A stretch of 33,791 nucleotides of DNA, from NCBI GenBank assembly GCA_024276745.1, contig JAJRWN010000058.1, positions 1 through 33,791 on the forward strand, given 5' to 3'. Both the position numbers and the translations under genes were made by a program. Of the stretch, positions 28,904 to 33,791 are shown piece after piece. Every line of letters begins with the position of its first letter. The stretch's first letter is position 1. This DNA is from Bacteroidota bacterium. Its GTDB lineage: Bacteria; Bacteroidota; Bacteroidia; Chitinophagales; S012-47. The notes under the pieces are model-generated. The model did not search any database. It saw only the letters and a program-made list of their open reading frames with translations, and was not told the origin of the DNA.

Positions 28904-30694
28904 TTAAAATGCGTACTTATTAGCTTCAATAAGTCTTGCCGCTATACTTCTTCTTAGGGCTTTGGTGTTTACAATTTCAGTTTTGGTAAAACGTTTTAAC
29001 CCCATAAGCATCATTTTTAGTTCATCGCCTTCGGCAAAAGCAGCCAAGGCATGTCTTCCATGCAAATTAAGTCTTTCCATGGCATCGCTAACGAAAACAC
29101 GGGTCATGTCGATATAAGGCTGTGCAATTGTTTCACCTTTTAGATTCAAAATTTTCAAACTTCTTAATAAGGCCGCTTCGGCACCATACACTTCCATCAT
29201 CATATCGGCAATATTCATCAAAATTTCTTGCTCATCTTCAAGATTTTGCATCAATTTCTGCACGGCAGCACCGGCCACCATCAGTACTGCTTTTTTAGCA
29301 TTGGCAATGGCTTTACATTCGGCAGCCAAAACACCAGTATCTTTTTCCGTATTAAAATCAGGAATTGACATCAATTCATTTTGTACAGCTTTAACCGGCC
29401 CCATCAAATCGATACGTCCTTTTAAAGCTCTTTTCAATAGCATGTCAACGGTAAGCAAACGATTGATTTCATTGGTACCTTCAAAAATCCGGTTGATACG
29501 GGCATCTCGGTAAGGACGAGCAGCCGGATATTCTTCGATAAAACCATAGCCACCATGAATCTGTACATTTTCATCTACCACATAATCGAGTGTTTCGGAA
29601 CCCATCACCTTGAGCATAGCACATTCAATGGCATATTCTTCGGCAGCAGTCATAATGGCATCCCAGTAAGAAGATCCAGAAGCTTTCATTTCTTCTACTT
29701 TCCTGTTGATCAAATCGCTGGCCCAATAGGTTGCGGATTCCGAAACAAAAATGCGAATCGCCTGTTCGGCCAATTTATATTGGATGGCACCAAAACTTGA
29801 TATAGCTTTTCCGAATTGATGTCTTTCGTTGGCATAAGCTACCGAAACAGAAGCTGCCGCTTTGCATCCGCCAACAGCCATGGCACATAATTTAAAGCGA
29901 CCGATATTCAGAATATTAAAAGCAATCAGATGCCCTTTACCTATTTCACCCAAAAGATTTTCTACCGGTACTTTTACATTTTCGAGAAAAATGGGAGTTG
30001 TTGAGGAACCCTTAATGCCCATTTTTTTCTCCTCCGGCCCCCGGGTTAATCCTTGACTGTCGCCTTCAACAATAAAACCGGTAAATTTTTCACCGTCAAT
30101 TTTAGCAAATACAATGTATAAATCAGCAAAGCCACCATTGGTAATAAACATTTTTTGTCCGTTCAGGATATAATATTTTCCATCTTCAGACAATACGGCT
30201 TTGGTACGGGCAGCGAGTGCATCGGAACCAGAACCGGGTTCGGTTAGGCAATAAGCCGCTTTCAATTGACCGGATGCCAAACCGGGTAAATATTTTTTCC
30301 TTTGTTCATCAGTGCCAAAATACAGAATTGGCAATGTACCGATACCGGTATGAGCGGCAAAAGCTACCCCAAAAGAAAAGCTTGGCCCAATGGCTATGGT
30401 CATAGCGGCATTGGTGTTAAAATCTTGCCCAAAACCCCCGAATTCTTCCGGAATAGAGGTGCTGAGCAACCCTAATTCACCGGCCTTTTCCATCAAGGAA
30501 GGAATCAGACCCTCTTGCTGAGCATCAATTTCATCCAACAATGGACTTACTTCTTTTTCAACAAATTCTGCAGCCATATCCCGAATCATACCTTGCTCTT
30601 CGTTGAGCTCTTCGGGTATGAAGATGGTATCGGGTGTGCTTTCCCTGACTAAAAATTCGCCACCTTTCAATACTTTAATATTGTTATTTTCCAT
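28904..30694 (-). CDS. Acyl-CoA dehydrogenase
   Basis: A 596-residue FAD enzyme for the first step of beta-oxidation. It is longer than the standard 380-residue class because of a C-terminal extension, as in very-long-chain acyl-CoA dehydrogenases. Visible signatures are YCLTEPGSGSDALAARTKA (FAD/acyl-binding), KMFITNGGFADLYIVFAKID, the helical core NERHQFGKAISSFGAIQYKL, and IHGGYGFIEEYPAARPYRDA followed by IFEGTNEINR, which carries the expected active-site Glu. The start at 30694 (MENNNIKVLKGGEF) drops ten unconserved residues that overlap the upstream gene. It lies 13 nt after the thiolase and is the last gene of the operon. Chain-length preference is inferred only. Confidence 0.93.
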   Translation of the reverse strand: MENNNIKVLKGGEFLVRESTPDTIFIPEELNEEQGMIRDMAAEFVEKEVSPLLDEIDAQQEGLIPSLMEKAGELGLLSTSIPEEFGGFGQDFNTNAAMTIAIGPSFSFGVAFAAHTGIGTLPILYFGTDEQRKKYLPGLASGQLKAAYCLTEPGSGSDALAARTKAVLSEDGKYYILNGQKMFITNGGFADLYIVFAKIDGEKFTGFIVEGDSQGLTRGPEEKKMGIKGSSTTPIFLENVKVPVENLLGEIGKGHLIAFNILNIGRFKLCAMAVGGCKAAASVSVAYANERHQFGKAISSFGAIQYKLAEQAIRIFVSESATYWASDLINRKVEEMKASGSSYWDAIMTAAEEYAIECAMLKVMGSETLDYVVDENVQIHGGYGFIEEYPAARPYRDARINRIFEGTNEINRLLTVDMLLKRALKGRIDLMGPVKAVQNELMSIPDFNTEKDTGVLAAECKAIANAKKAVLMVAGAAVQKLMQNLEDEQEILMNIADMMMEVYGAEAALLRSLKILNLKGETIAQPYIDMTRVFVSDAMERLNLHGRHALAAFAEGDELKMMLMGLKRFTKTEIVNTKALRRSIAARLIEANKYAF

Positions 30695-30707
30695 GTTACT
30701 TTTTTTC

Positions 30708-31883
30708 TCAGTTGAGTAATTCAATAATTGATGCTATACCTTGTCCTCCTCCGATACAGGCTGTTACAATGCCATATTTTTGTTTCCTTCTTCTCAGTTC
30801 ATTGATAATTTGGATAGTTAACTTGGTGCCGGTACATCCCAGCGGATGTCCGAGGGCAATAGCTCCTCCGTTCACATTAACAATATCGGGATTAAGGCAA
30901 GTTTCGCGAATAACAGCCAATGACTGGGAAGCAAAAGCTTCGTTGAGTTCAATCAAATCGATATCATCTAATTTTAATCCGGCTCTTTTGAGGGCTTTAG
31001 GAATAGCTTCTTTGGGTCCAATGCCCATGTAACGGGGTTCAACACCAACCGTTACAGCAGTAATCATTCTGGCAATAGGGCTAATGTTTAATTCTTTTGC
31101 CATTTCATCAGACATCACGATTACAAATGCAGCTCCATCAGAAGTTTGTGATGAATTACCGGCTGTTACACTTCCATTGGCAGCAAAGACAGGACGCAAA
31201 CGGGCCAGAGCTTCCAGAGAAGTATCAGTCCTCGGACCTTCATCGGTATCTACTACCCATGAGCGGGTTTGGCGTTTGCCATCTTTCACAAAAACTTCTT
31301 CCACTTCAATAGGAACAATCTCGTCTTTGAATTTTTCTTCTTTAAGCGCTTTCAAGGCTTTTTGATGCGATTCGTAAGAAAACTTATCCTGGTCTTCGCG
31401 CGATACCTTGTATTTACGAGCTACTTCTTCTGCAGTCAAACCCATGCCCATATAGTAGTCAGGATGTTCTTTAGATACCTCGTAATTCGGTACGGTTTTC
31501 CAACCGACAGTCGGTACTAAAGACATGGACTCTACTCCACCGGCAATAATGCAATCGGCCATGCCTGAACGGATTTTGGCCGAGGCAATGGCAATTGACT
31601 CAACCCCTGAACCGCAATATCGATTCACTGTGGCACCTCCAACCTCCATGGGTAAAACTCGTACGGAAATCATCCGACCTATTTGCAGACCTTGCTCTGC
31701 TTCCGGTACGGCATTGCCTACAATCAAATCATCTACCCGGTGGGGATCGAGTTGTGGAATACTTTTTAATAAATGGTCAATTACTTTTACGGCCAAATCA
31801 TCGGGTCGGGTGAAACGAAAACCGCCTCGATTGGCTTTGCCAACGGCAGTTCTGAATCCGGCTACTATGTATGCTTCTCTCAT
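30708..31883 (-). CDS. fadA: Acetyl-CoA acyltransferase (3-ketoacyl-CoA thiolase)
   Basis: A 391-residue thiolase that performs the last step of beta-oxidation. Catalytic residues are Cys90 (NRYCGSGVESI), His346 (ALGHPLGCTG) and Cys376 (VTACIGGGQG). The N-terminus MREAYIVAGFRTAVGK is typical. The position between the multifunctional dehydrogenase/hydratase and the acyl-CoA dehydrogenase gives a degradative role, unlike the other thiolase at 632-1816. The four-helix-bundle element lies directly upstream. Confidence 0.95.
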   Translation of the reverse strand: MREAYIVAGFRTAVGKANRGGFRFTRPDDLAVKVIDHLLKSIPQLDPHRVDDLIVGNAVPEAEQGLQIGRMISVRVLPMEVGGATVNRYCGSGVESIAIASAKIRSGMADCIIAGGVESMSLVPTVGWKTVPNYEVSKEHPDYYMGMGLTAEEVARKYKVSREDQDKFSYESHQKALKALKEEKFKDEIVPIEVEEVFVKDGKRQTRSWVVDTDEGPRTDTSLEALARLRPVFAANGSVTAGNSSQTSDGAAFVIVMSDEMAKELNISPIARMITAVTVGVEPRYMGIGPKEAIPKALKRAGLKLDDIDLIELNEAFASQSLAVIRETCLNPDIVNVNGGAIALGHPLGCTGTKLTIQIINELRRRKQKYGIVTACIGGGQGIASIIELLN

Positions 31884-31911
31884 TGTTGTTTTGTTTGTAC
31901 AATGTCCAAAG

Positions 31912-31931
31912 TATTAAGTACAAAGTACTAA
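31912..31931 (+). repeat. Left inverted repeat of the four-helix-bundle element
   Basis: A 20-nt repeat that contains an AGTAC-AAA-GTACT hairpin of its own and the stop codon of the enclosed gene. Confidence 0.65.
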
Positions 31932-32281
31932 TTACTTAAAGACTTTTGTAGTTTGAAAATCATATTTCTTATATGTCCTGTATTAACAATTATATCATCA
32001 AATTCTTTCTTACCAACGAAGTTTAAAGGTTCGTCTATAAAGAGTAATGTTTCCACTTCAGAGCAAGATCCTGAAGCAATACCCAAAAAATGATTGAATT
32101 CCTTATTCGAATTTCTTCCACTTCCTTCAGCGATATTGGCAGGAATTGATACTGCAGCTCTTCTTATTTGGCTAATCAGCCCAAATTTTTCATCCTCTGG
32201 AAATTGATTACTCAAGTGATAAATATCCTTTGTTAATTCAATGGCTTTATGCCAAACGTCCAATTTTTCATACCGATTCAC
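31928..32281 (-). CDS. Four-helix-bundle protein (S23/IVP family)
   Basis: A 117-residue all-helical protein. The family signature is easy to see: KLDVWHKAIELTKDIYHLS, LISQIRRAAVSIPANIAEG, FNHFLGIASGSCSEVETLL and a last helix GHIRNMIFKLQKSL. Family members were first found as proteins encoded in 23S rRNA intervening sequences and are distantly related to Avd, the accessory protein of diversity-generating retroelements. Members form pentameric barrels and may bind nucleic acid; the cellular role is unknown. Here it is inserted in the beta-oxidation operon in the same direction, with inverted repeats at both ends. No own promoter box is apparent, so it is probably read with the operon. Confidence 0.92.
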   Translation of the reverse strand: MNRYEKLDVWHKAIELTKDIYHLSNQFPEDEKFGLISQIRRAAVSIPANIAEGSGRNSNKEFNHFLGIASGSCSEVETLLFIDEPLNFVGKKEFDDIIVNTGHIRNMIFKLQKSLSN

Positions 32282-32297
32282 AATTCAACTTTTTTAC

Positions 32298-32317
32298 TTA
32301 ATACTTCGTACTTAATA
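32298..32317 (-). repeat. Right inverted repeat of the four-helix-bundle element
   Basis: A 20-nt repeat, 18/20 identical in reverse complement to 31912-31931 (differences at positions 11 and 17), 17 nt upstream of the enclosed gene's ATG. Confidence 0.65.
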
Positions 32318-32335
32318 CCTGATATTTTTAAAAAA

Positions 32336-33791
32336 TCAATTTCTCAATGGTTTACCTGTTTTTAGCAGGCTTTCTATTCTTTCCAACGTTTTCTTTTCGC
32401 CCAAGAGGCTGAGGAAAGCTTCCCGTTCGAGGTCGAGGAGATATTGTTCATCAACCATTTGCGGACTCGTAAGGTCGCCTCCACACATCACATAGGCCAG
32501 CTTTTGAGCAATCTTCATATCGTAGTCCGTCACATAATGGCCCACCCCAAAAGCATATACTCCGGTGAAGAATGCACCTAGTGCACTACGTCCCAAAACT
32601 TTAATATCTTTTCGCATAAGCGGTTGGGTATAACCGGCTTCATCCAAATCAATAACCGCTCTTTTGGCATCGGCAATCAAACGGTTTTGATTCATGGTAA
32701 AGGCATCGACACCGGAACGAAGAATTCCTTTTTCCATGGCTTCAACAGCAGATGTGGCCACTTGTGCCTGTGCTATAGCAAGGAAACGTTTTTGTAATTC
32801 CGGAAATTCAACTTCACCACTTTGATATTCATCGGAAGCCCTTAATACCATTTCTTTGGTGCCTCCTCCTCCGGGAATAAGCCCGGCTCCTACCTCCACT
32901 AAACCGATATAGGTTTCAGCTGCTGCTTGAGTATGGTCGGCATGCATTGAAAGTTCGCAACCACCCCCAAGGGTCAATCCATGTGGAGCAACCACTACAG
33001 GGATAGCGGAATAACGGGTGCGCATGGTCGTTTTCTGGAACATGGATATAGCCATATTGAGCTCGTCAAATTCTTGCTCCACAGCCAGCATCAATATCAT
33101 CGCCAAATTGGCTCCGGCTGAAAAAGCAGGAGCATCGTTGCCAATCACCAAACCACGATAGTCTTTCTCAGCAATGTCAATGGCTTTATTAATGCCTTGA
33201 ATAACATCAGAACCAATGGCATTCATTTTGGTGTGAAATTCCAGATTCAATACTCCATCGCCTATATCATGCAAGGTAGAGCCCTCGTTGCTCCATACCG
33301 GTTTTTCACCACGGTAATTATCCAGAATAATAAAATCGGAAGTACCCGGAATCGCTTTATATTTTTTGTCCTTTTGGTCATAATAAAAGCGATTGCCTTT
33401 TTCAGTTTTGTAGAAATGATCCATTCCCGAAGCCAGCATTTCATCTATCCATGCAGCAGGCTGATGACCGGCATCTTTCATGGCTTTTACCATTCGTTCT
33501 ACTCCCAAAACATCCCAGGTTTCGAAAGGACCTAATTCCCATCCAAAACCGGTTCGAAGGGCATCGTCCATTTTATATAAATCATCCGTAATTTCAGGAA
33601 TACGGTTTGATACATAAGCAAAAAGGTGAAATGATAACTGCCTGAAAAAATCGGCTGCTTTATCTTTTCCTTTAGCCAGGATTTTTAAACGGTCGGCTAG
33701 CTGATCGGCTTGCCGGGCAGCCCCTACCGATTTGAAGCGGGGTTTGGTTTTGGGGCGATATTCCATTCTTTGTATATCAAGTACTTCAATC
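32336..33791 (-). CDS. 3-hydroxyacyl-CoA dehydrogenase/enoyl-CoA hydratase, C-terminal part
   Basis: The frame stays open to the window edge (residues IEVLDIQR precede the first internal Met at 33766), so the true start lies outside and about 485 residues are visible. Family proteins in Bacteroidota have about 800 residues: an NAD-binding dehydrogenase domain first (missing here), then the dehydrogenase C-terminal domain (DDALRTGFGWELGPFETWDV), then a crotonase domain. The crotonase part shows FSAGANLAMILMLAVEQEF (oxyanion-hole region), GLTLGGGCELSMHAD and GLVEVGAGLIPGGGGTKEM with the catalytic Glu positions. It performs hydration and NAD-dependent oxidation in beta-oxidation. It is the first visible gene of the operon with thiolase and acyl-CoA dehydrogenase. 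Confidence 0.93.
   Translation of the reverse strand, partial: IEVLDIQRMEYRPKTKPRFKSVGAARQADQLADRLKILAKGKDKAADFFRQLSFHLFAYVSNRIPEITDDLYKMDDALRTGFGWELGPFETWDVLGVERMVKAMKDAGHQPAAWIDEMLASGMDHFYKTEKGNRFYYDQKDKKYKAIPGTSDFIILDNYRGEKPVWSNEGSTLHDIGDGVLNLEFHTKMNAIGSDVIQGINKAIDIAEKDYRGLVIGNDAPAFSAGANLAMILMLAVEQEFDELNMAISMFQKTTMRTRYSAIPVVVAPHGLTLGGGCELSMHADHTQAAAETYIGLVEVGAGLIPGGGGTKEMVLRASDEYQSGEVEFPELQKRFLAIAQAQVATSAVEAMEKGILRSGVDAFTMNQNRLIADAKRAVIDLDEAGYTQPLMRKDIKVLGRSALGAFFTGVYAFGVGHYVTDYDMKIAQKLAYVMCGGDLTSPQMVDEQYLLDLEREAFLSLLGEKKTLERIESLLKTGKPLRN

Follow-up and report, generated by a model that had tools for sequence, protein, structure and literature searches.

Proteins of the IVP/S23 family carry the annotation '23S rRNA intervening sequence protein' or 'four helix bundle protein', and we know of no function for them. 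Intervening sequences (IVS) in rRNA are excised by RNase III, and their mobility has long been suspected (PMC4990558). Repeats of seven nucleotides form a separate body of literature: the GGGAATC heptanucleotide repeats of Xanthomonas make 70–75 close inverted pairs per genome and were described without a link to mobile elements (PMC4692102), and heptameric repeats in Beggiatoaceae (TAACTGA), cyanobacteria and some Bacteroidetes were reported with no mechanism given (PMC4679880). Among open-access papers, we found neither a description of an element that combines an IVP gene with heptad arrays nor any connection between heptameric repeats and IVP. Here we analyse a stretch of 33,791 nucleotides from a Bacteroidota metagenome-assembled genome (hereafter the window), in which an IVP gene sits between two genes of fatty-acid metabolism.

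An IVP gene between inverted heptad arrays

The initial annotation of the window had described a unit bounded by inverted repeats that enclose an S23/IVP gene and nothing else, placed between two genes of one operon and keeping their direction. Our analysis bears this out. The 117-aa open reading frame matches PF05635 (131.6 bits; cut-off 33.8) and TIGR02436 (119.8 bits; cut-off 24), and its neighbours, fadB and fadA, lie on the same strand (Table 1; the 5' part of the fadB-like gene is cut by the contig end). The inverted repeat is identical at 18 of 20 positions (31912–31931 and 32298–32317) and its pairing extends to 24 nt at 88% identity; it scores 30 locally, where a Markov-1 null averages 15.4, and 1 of 3,000 shuffles reached that score. 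The overlap of the left repeat with the stop codon (31928–31930) was likewise confirmed.

Table 1. Features of the window at and around the IVP gene
Feature	Position	Strand	Basis
IVP / S23 four-helix-bundle protein gene, 117 aa, GTG start	31928..32281	-	PF05635, TIGR02436 and AF2 model
Downstream (D) arm (coding sense), degenerate period-7 array, paired core 31911–31934	31896..31940		Lag-7 array and inverted repeat
Upstream (U) arm (coding sense), GTATTAA GTACGAA GTATTAA GTA, paired core 32295–32318	32294..32325		Lag-7 array, inverted repeat and 22-bp stem in RNA fold
Upstream operon gene, fadB-like (3-hydroxyacyl-CoA dehydrogenase/enoyl-CoA hydratase)	32336..33766	-	Staph_FadB model 1.8e-86, ECH_1
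Downstream operon gene, fadA (acetyl-CoA C-acyltransferase)	30708..31883	-	Thiolase_N/C; PRK07661
Acyl-CoA dehydrogenase, next gene in fad operon	28904..30724	-	PF21263, PF00441 and others

Each arm is a tandem degenerate heptad, which reads GTATTAA GTACGAA GTATTAA GTA or, on the other strand, TACTTAA TACTTCG TACTTAA TAC. The two arms are the sole lag-7 arrays of the 33.8-kb window, across which no arrays at lags 5, 6, 8, 9 or 10 were found, and in a predicted RNA fold they pair as a 22-bp stem. The IVP is the only open reading frame enclosed: no transposase lies between the arms, and the cassette holds no reverse transcriptase (RT) and no template or variable repeats (TR, VR). The unit lies between fadB and fadA and outside any 23S rRNA gene; no Rfam match was obtained at 30000–33791, and PADLOC returned no defence-system match. 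In the window's own genome (90% complete), we detected no second IVP gene and no Y1_Tnp transposase, and its one RVT_1 match is on a different contig (C15, the window being on C35). Further copies of the TATTAAGTAC repeat, for which the initial annotation had proposed a search, did not appear beyond chance in this genome; the near-exact pattern occurs at this unit alone, and a reversed control pattern was commoner.

The AF2 model of the window IVP is a four-helix bundle (pLDDT 94.9) that matches 2gsc (TM 0.93) and also 2rld. Both PDB entries have five chains, and 2gsc is a pentamer (PMC4990558). The proposed, more remote kinship with Avd of diversity-generating retroelements (DGRs) gained support from phrog_3206 ('Avd protein of DGR'; E 5.7e-5) and from Foldseek matches to Avd 4dwl and the DGR RNP 8ub7 at a TM of about 0.75–0.80, although their E values were 0.1 or worse.

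Each element carries its own heptad

To place the arms in a wider setting, we took 107 IVP genes from the order of the window genome, some of them orthologous and therefore not all independent, and compared each upstream flank with the reverse complement of the same gene's downstream flank (threshold score 28). Own arms had a median score of 30, with 61% at or above threshold, against a median of 16 and 1.4% for mismatched pairs (p 2e-47). Flank pairs in direct orientation reached threshold in 8%, and about 40% of IVPs had no arms at this threshold. Flank autocorrelation was clearly raised only at lags 7, 14 and 21 (0.38, 0.36 and 0.35, against 0.29). The arms are about 31 nt long, or about 4.5 heptads, with AG in phase every 7 nt. 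Upstream arms are poor in C (7.6%, with 26% G) and contain more G than C in 105 of 114 cases, and in 54% the downstream arm overlaps the IVP stop codon or lies at most 10 nt from it. An unbiased scan of 400 kb of one genome (G187) recovered the same pattern: strong lag-7 repetition occurred in 18 segments, compared with 0–4 at lags outside the multiples of 7, and all four heptad inverted pairs with loops longer than 100 nt contained an IVP gene. Three more pairs in that stretch were gene-less hairpins with short loops. In some lineages the arms have a period of 8 instead of 7 (L244, L237, L248, L224 and L235).

The heptad is specific to the element, because the two arms of a copy match each other in 74% of the 42 copies from six related genomes, whereas arms from different copies within one of these genomes match in 0.9% of 352 comparisons. 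Each element thus has a private heptad word that is shared by its two arms, and a genome-specific repeat family is ruled out, as the units differ among copies of one genome. The rule of one word per copy was repeated in Clostridia (12 copies) and Ignavibacteria (7 copies). In two close gammaproteobacteria (G389 and G513; 93–96% DNA identity), the same element at the same site shows a rearranged alignment of its arm arrays (L351/L352 and L377/L378), which suggests array expansion or contraction.

Substitution patterns in both parts of the element point to constraint. With a dN/dS of 0.04–0.11 for IVP pairs where it could be computed, the protein is, on codon comparison, under purifying selection. 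In an orthologous set of seven, the arms are 92–98% identical and the coding DNA 67–78%, so conservation is stronger in the arms than in the gene and, to judge from these identities, the arms are under purifying selection too. In-register covariation between the arms was slight in this set, in which strong covariation was not found; a constraint on the heptad word itself, as expected for recognition, is therefore better supported than a constraint on pairing alone, although the window unit is predicted to form a stem of 22 bp.

Gain, loss and movement of gene and arms together

Of 299 genomes that we sampled from the window genome's order, 245 had IVP genes; among those with a full listing, a single genome had as many as 16 unlike copies. 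The initial annotation had suggested looking for empty sites in the same operon of relatives, and such sites exist. At the fadB–fadA junction, some genomes carry an IVP in operon direction and many carry none; the occupied sites that we read have short repeat arrays on both sides, with a different word in each genome. Of seven fadB–fadA junctions in genus g21, three are empty (a spacer of about 30 nt with no arrays), three hold one IVP lineage and the seventh holds an unrelated IVP with another heptad. In genus g28 (18 genomes), the states found at the fadA–ACAD junction are the complete element, a cleanly empty site of 54 nt, downstream arms on their own and hairpins without the gene. One g28 species, G109, also carries an inverted pair without the gene at the adjoining junction, and the arms of this pair match those of its relatives' element with a score of up to 47 (shuffled maximum, 31). 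Gene-less, arm-only derivatives therefore exist.

In Flavobacterium and a relative, related elements sit at two junctions of one operon. IVPs with 85% amino acid identity and the same heptad occupy the fadB–fadA junction in L193 (F. fluvii) and, in L189, the junction of a marR-like gene with fadB; outside the fad genes themselves, the DNA match is confined to the element. L069 and L070, in a restriction–modification operon, look like a similar case. When IVPs that lie at different sites and have at least 50% protein identity were paired, the arm unit was shared in 23 of the 118 pairs, compared with 3.8 expected (permutation, p 0.0002); over all pairs, arm unit and protein identity were weakly correlated in a simple Mantel test (rho 0.07; 35 of 500 permutations). 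Because the arm unit tracks the protein among these more similar pairs, arms and gene travel and diverge together, and comparison of these sequences shows the unit to be inherited with the protein lineage. Taken together, the arms share with the gene its gains, its losses and its occurrence at new junctions.

Movement seems to be rare, because many copies keep the same site from genus to genus. Among the copies compared, there was no strain-level insertion polymorphism, and no near-identical IVP copies were found at two sites of one genome. Nor did we see a target-site duplication, the empty sites being too diverged to read one. Most insertions share the direction of both flanking genes, which is true of 88 of the 98 IVPs; for background triples from the same crude ORF caller, the figure is 161 of 298. 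Antisense insertion exists, as in Nostoc (L303).

Operons of fatty-acid degradation are common hosts (L189–L193, L390 and L405–L417), with 22 of the 107 IVPs of the first set, a share that is partly due to the drawing of that set through fadB. Copy-rich genomes, such as G101, G184 and G048, also contain IVP fragments with internal stops, as would be expected of a decaying mobile family. In L023, the fadB–fadA junction (865 nt) has two similar small ORFs in place of an IVP, so this junction tolerates other insertions. The same junction in L063 (about 1.2 kb) contains complex nested repeats, among them CCAATGGAACCTGTTCCATTG palindromes and short tandem words, and no IVP gene.

Armed IVPs occur across phyla and on plasmids

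IVPs with the same arms on either side occur in Bacteroidota (both type strains and MAGs), Bacillota, Pseudomonadota, Chloroflexota, Ignavibacteriota, Omnitrophota, Gottesmanbacteria and Planctomycetota, and in contigs classed as viral. They were present at 70% of 27 gammaproteobacterial IVPs, and armed IVPs are carried by plasmids of cyanobacteria, Gemmatimonadota, Azospirillum and Riemerella. None of 36 IVP loci scanned with Rfam had rRNA nearby, which rules out, for these loci, that IVPs without arms are 23S insertions. The initial annotation thus caught one case of a general pattern, and missed the heptad arrays, their element-specific unit and their pan-bacterial spread.

Some cyanobacterial plasmids carry IVP genes within CRISPR operons (L307, L308 and L314), in the order cas6–IVP–cas4 in Pseudanabaena and Anabaena 90 and cas10/cmr2–IVP–cmr3 in Picosynechococcus. 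Annotation of such genes may wrongly suggest a CRISPR function.

Nature of the element and its mobility

We consider it probable that the window unit is one copy of a small (about 400–470 nt) selfish mobile cassette, with the structure [heptad array]–IVP gene–[inverted heptad array]. The IVP pentamer probably recognises the heptads of its own arms. An IVP ring would bind these heptads, about one per subunit, in single-stranded or hairpin form, much as TRAP binds its spaced triplets; the idea of one heptad per subunit draws on the arms of about 4.5 heptads, the phase-locked AG, the C-poor upstream arm and the five-chain homologues. The resulting nucleoprotein would keep both arms in match and offer the hairpin cassette to host machinery that moves it; we invoke such machinery because the IVP has no recognisable catalytic domain. 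In RNA, RNase III may cut the arm stem as it does in 23S rRNA IVS. Excision of the cassette from mRNA is plausible on this analogy, and would make insertions in operons tolerable.

How such a cassette moves can be pictured in two ways, neither of which we regard as likely. The arms might pair in mRNA and be excised by RNase III, and the RNA might re-enter transcripts and be copied back to DNA, with the IVP as an Avd-like RNA chaperone. The Coxiella IVS has the same architecture (428–444 nt, a 28-bp terminal stem, the S23p ORF in the loop and RNase III cleavage; PMC4990558), and the stem predicted at the window, the strong co-direction with operons, the occurrence of related copies at more than one junction of an operon and the Avd-like fold agree with an RNA-borne element. 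Arm covariation is weak, however, and no Rfam-scanned locus lies in 23S rRNA. Moreover, several copy-rich genomes give no RVT_1 match, among them the near-complete G187, G101, G125 and G293, with 11–16 IVP copies. An RT is thus not needed to hold many copies, whatever help it may have given in trans in the past. Of the original reading, then, the mobile IVS-like unit living between protein genes stands, on the strength of empty sites and of related copies at different junctions, and its spread by reverse transcriptase is not supported. An equally doubtful version has a DNA hairpin moved in trans, by a single-strand transposase of the Y1/RAYT type or by template switching at the fork, with the IVP as an arm-binding accessory and the gene-less hairpins as MITE-like derivatives. 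Gene-less hairpins and solo arms do exist, tandem and inverted repeats are good template-switch substrates that could explain how arms stay matched, and Y1_Tnp is present in 18 of 20 IVP genomes. Yet it is absent from the window genome (G000) and from G289, which is complete and has 12 copies. This speaks against dependence on a Y1 transposase, which is accordingly not needed to hold many copies, past help in trans again being possible; and a DNA route leaves the orientation bias to selection alone.

Mobility itself could be questioned. An old, operon-embedded regulatory cassette, inherited vertically, often lost and working by TRAP-like autoregulation through a ring on AG-spaced repeats, would account for the sites conserved across genera, for arms that are the most conserved part, for the low dN/dS and for the 16 fadB–fadA copies that fall mostly in one loose clade. 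We disfavour this reading and think it improbable, given the unrelated IVPs at one site within genus g21, the related element at different junctions (L189/L193), the gene-less copies elsewhere in G109 and the presence of up to 16 unlike copies per genome. Chance or low-complexity sequence beside a small gene might be suspected in AT-rich intergenic DNA with a single copy in the window genome; its probability is negligible in view of the period of 7 and the unbiased G187 scan, and a chance repeat is ruled out by the own-arm statistics of the 107 IVPs and the Markov null.

More tentatively, and at somewhat less than even probability, these cassettes could constitute a separate pan-bacterial class of elements: inverted arrays of a freely evolving, element-specific word of 7 (or 8) nt, read by the element's own pentameric ring at one repeat per subunit, without a nuclease, transposase or RT of its own. 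Such a class would be the source of many unexplained heptameric intergenic repeats, including cyanobacterial STRR and Xanthomonas GGGAATC, and the parent of 23S rRNA IVS. Apart from this broader reading, the finding joins two puzzles, in that it identifies such heptameric intergenic repeats as arms of cassettes with an IVP gene. It offers a candidate origin for heptad repeats and for 23S IVS, and gives a large orphan protein family a testable function, the binding of its own heptads. It also describes a compact element that inserts inside operons, CRISPR and fatty-acid operons included, without an enzyme of its own.

Comparison with known systems

Among the nearest relatives are the 23S rRNA IVS with an S23p ORF in Coxiella and Leptospira, which share with the elements described here the protein family, a length of about 400–440 nt, complementary ends and an ORF in the loop. 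They differ in lying in rRNA, whereas our elements lie between protein genes and none of the scanned loci is in rRNA. The ends here are also tandem heptad arrays with an element-specific unit, a feature that we read from intergenic copies only. As degenerate intergenic 7-nt arrays, the arms resemble STRR, Xanthomonas GGGAATC and Beggiatoaceae TAACTGA; the papers on those repeats connect them with neither an IVP gene nor a mobile element, whereas here the arrays form both arms of an IVP cassette, on cyanobacterial plasmids as well. REP/RAYT elements and MITEs similarly comprise short intergenic hairpins, gene-less derivatives and gene-bearing versions, but the present cassette has no transposase, and its arms are a different tandem heptad in each copy, with no fixed terminal sequence. 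Classical transposons and insertion sequences, by contrast, have the same terminal repeats in all copies, whereas here the arm of another copy is seldom a match (0.9%, against 74% for the own partner, in six genomes). Avd of DGRs shares the four-helix bundle fold (TM about 0.75–0.80), although its sequence identity to IVP is 6–9% and the cassette lacks RT, TR and VR; we know of no inverted heptad arms for Avd. We place the element with the IVS kind, and it may turn out to form a class by itself.
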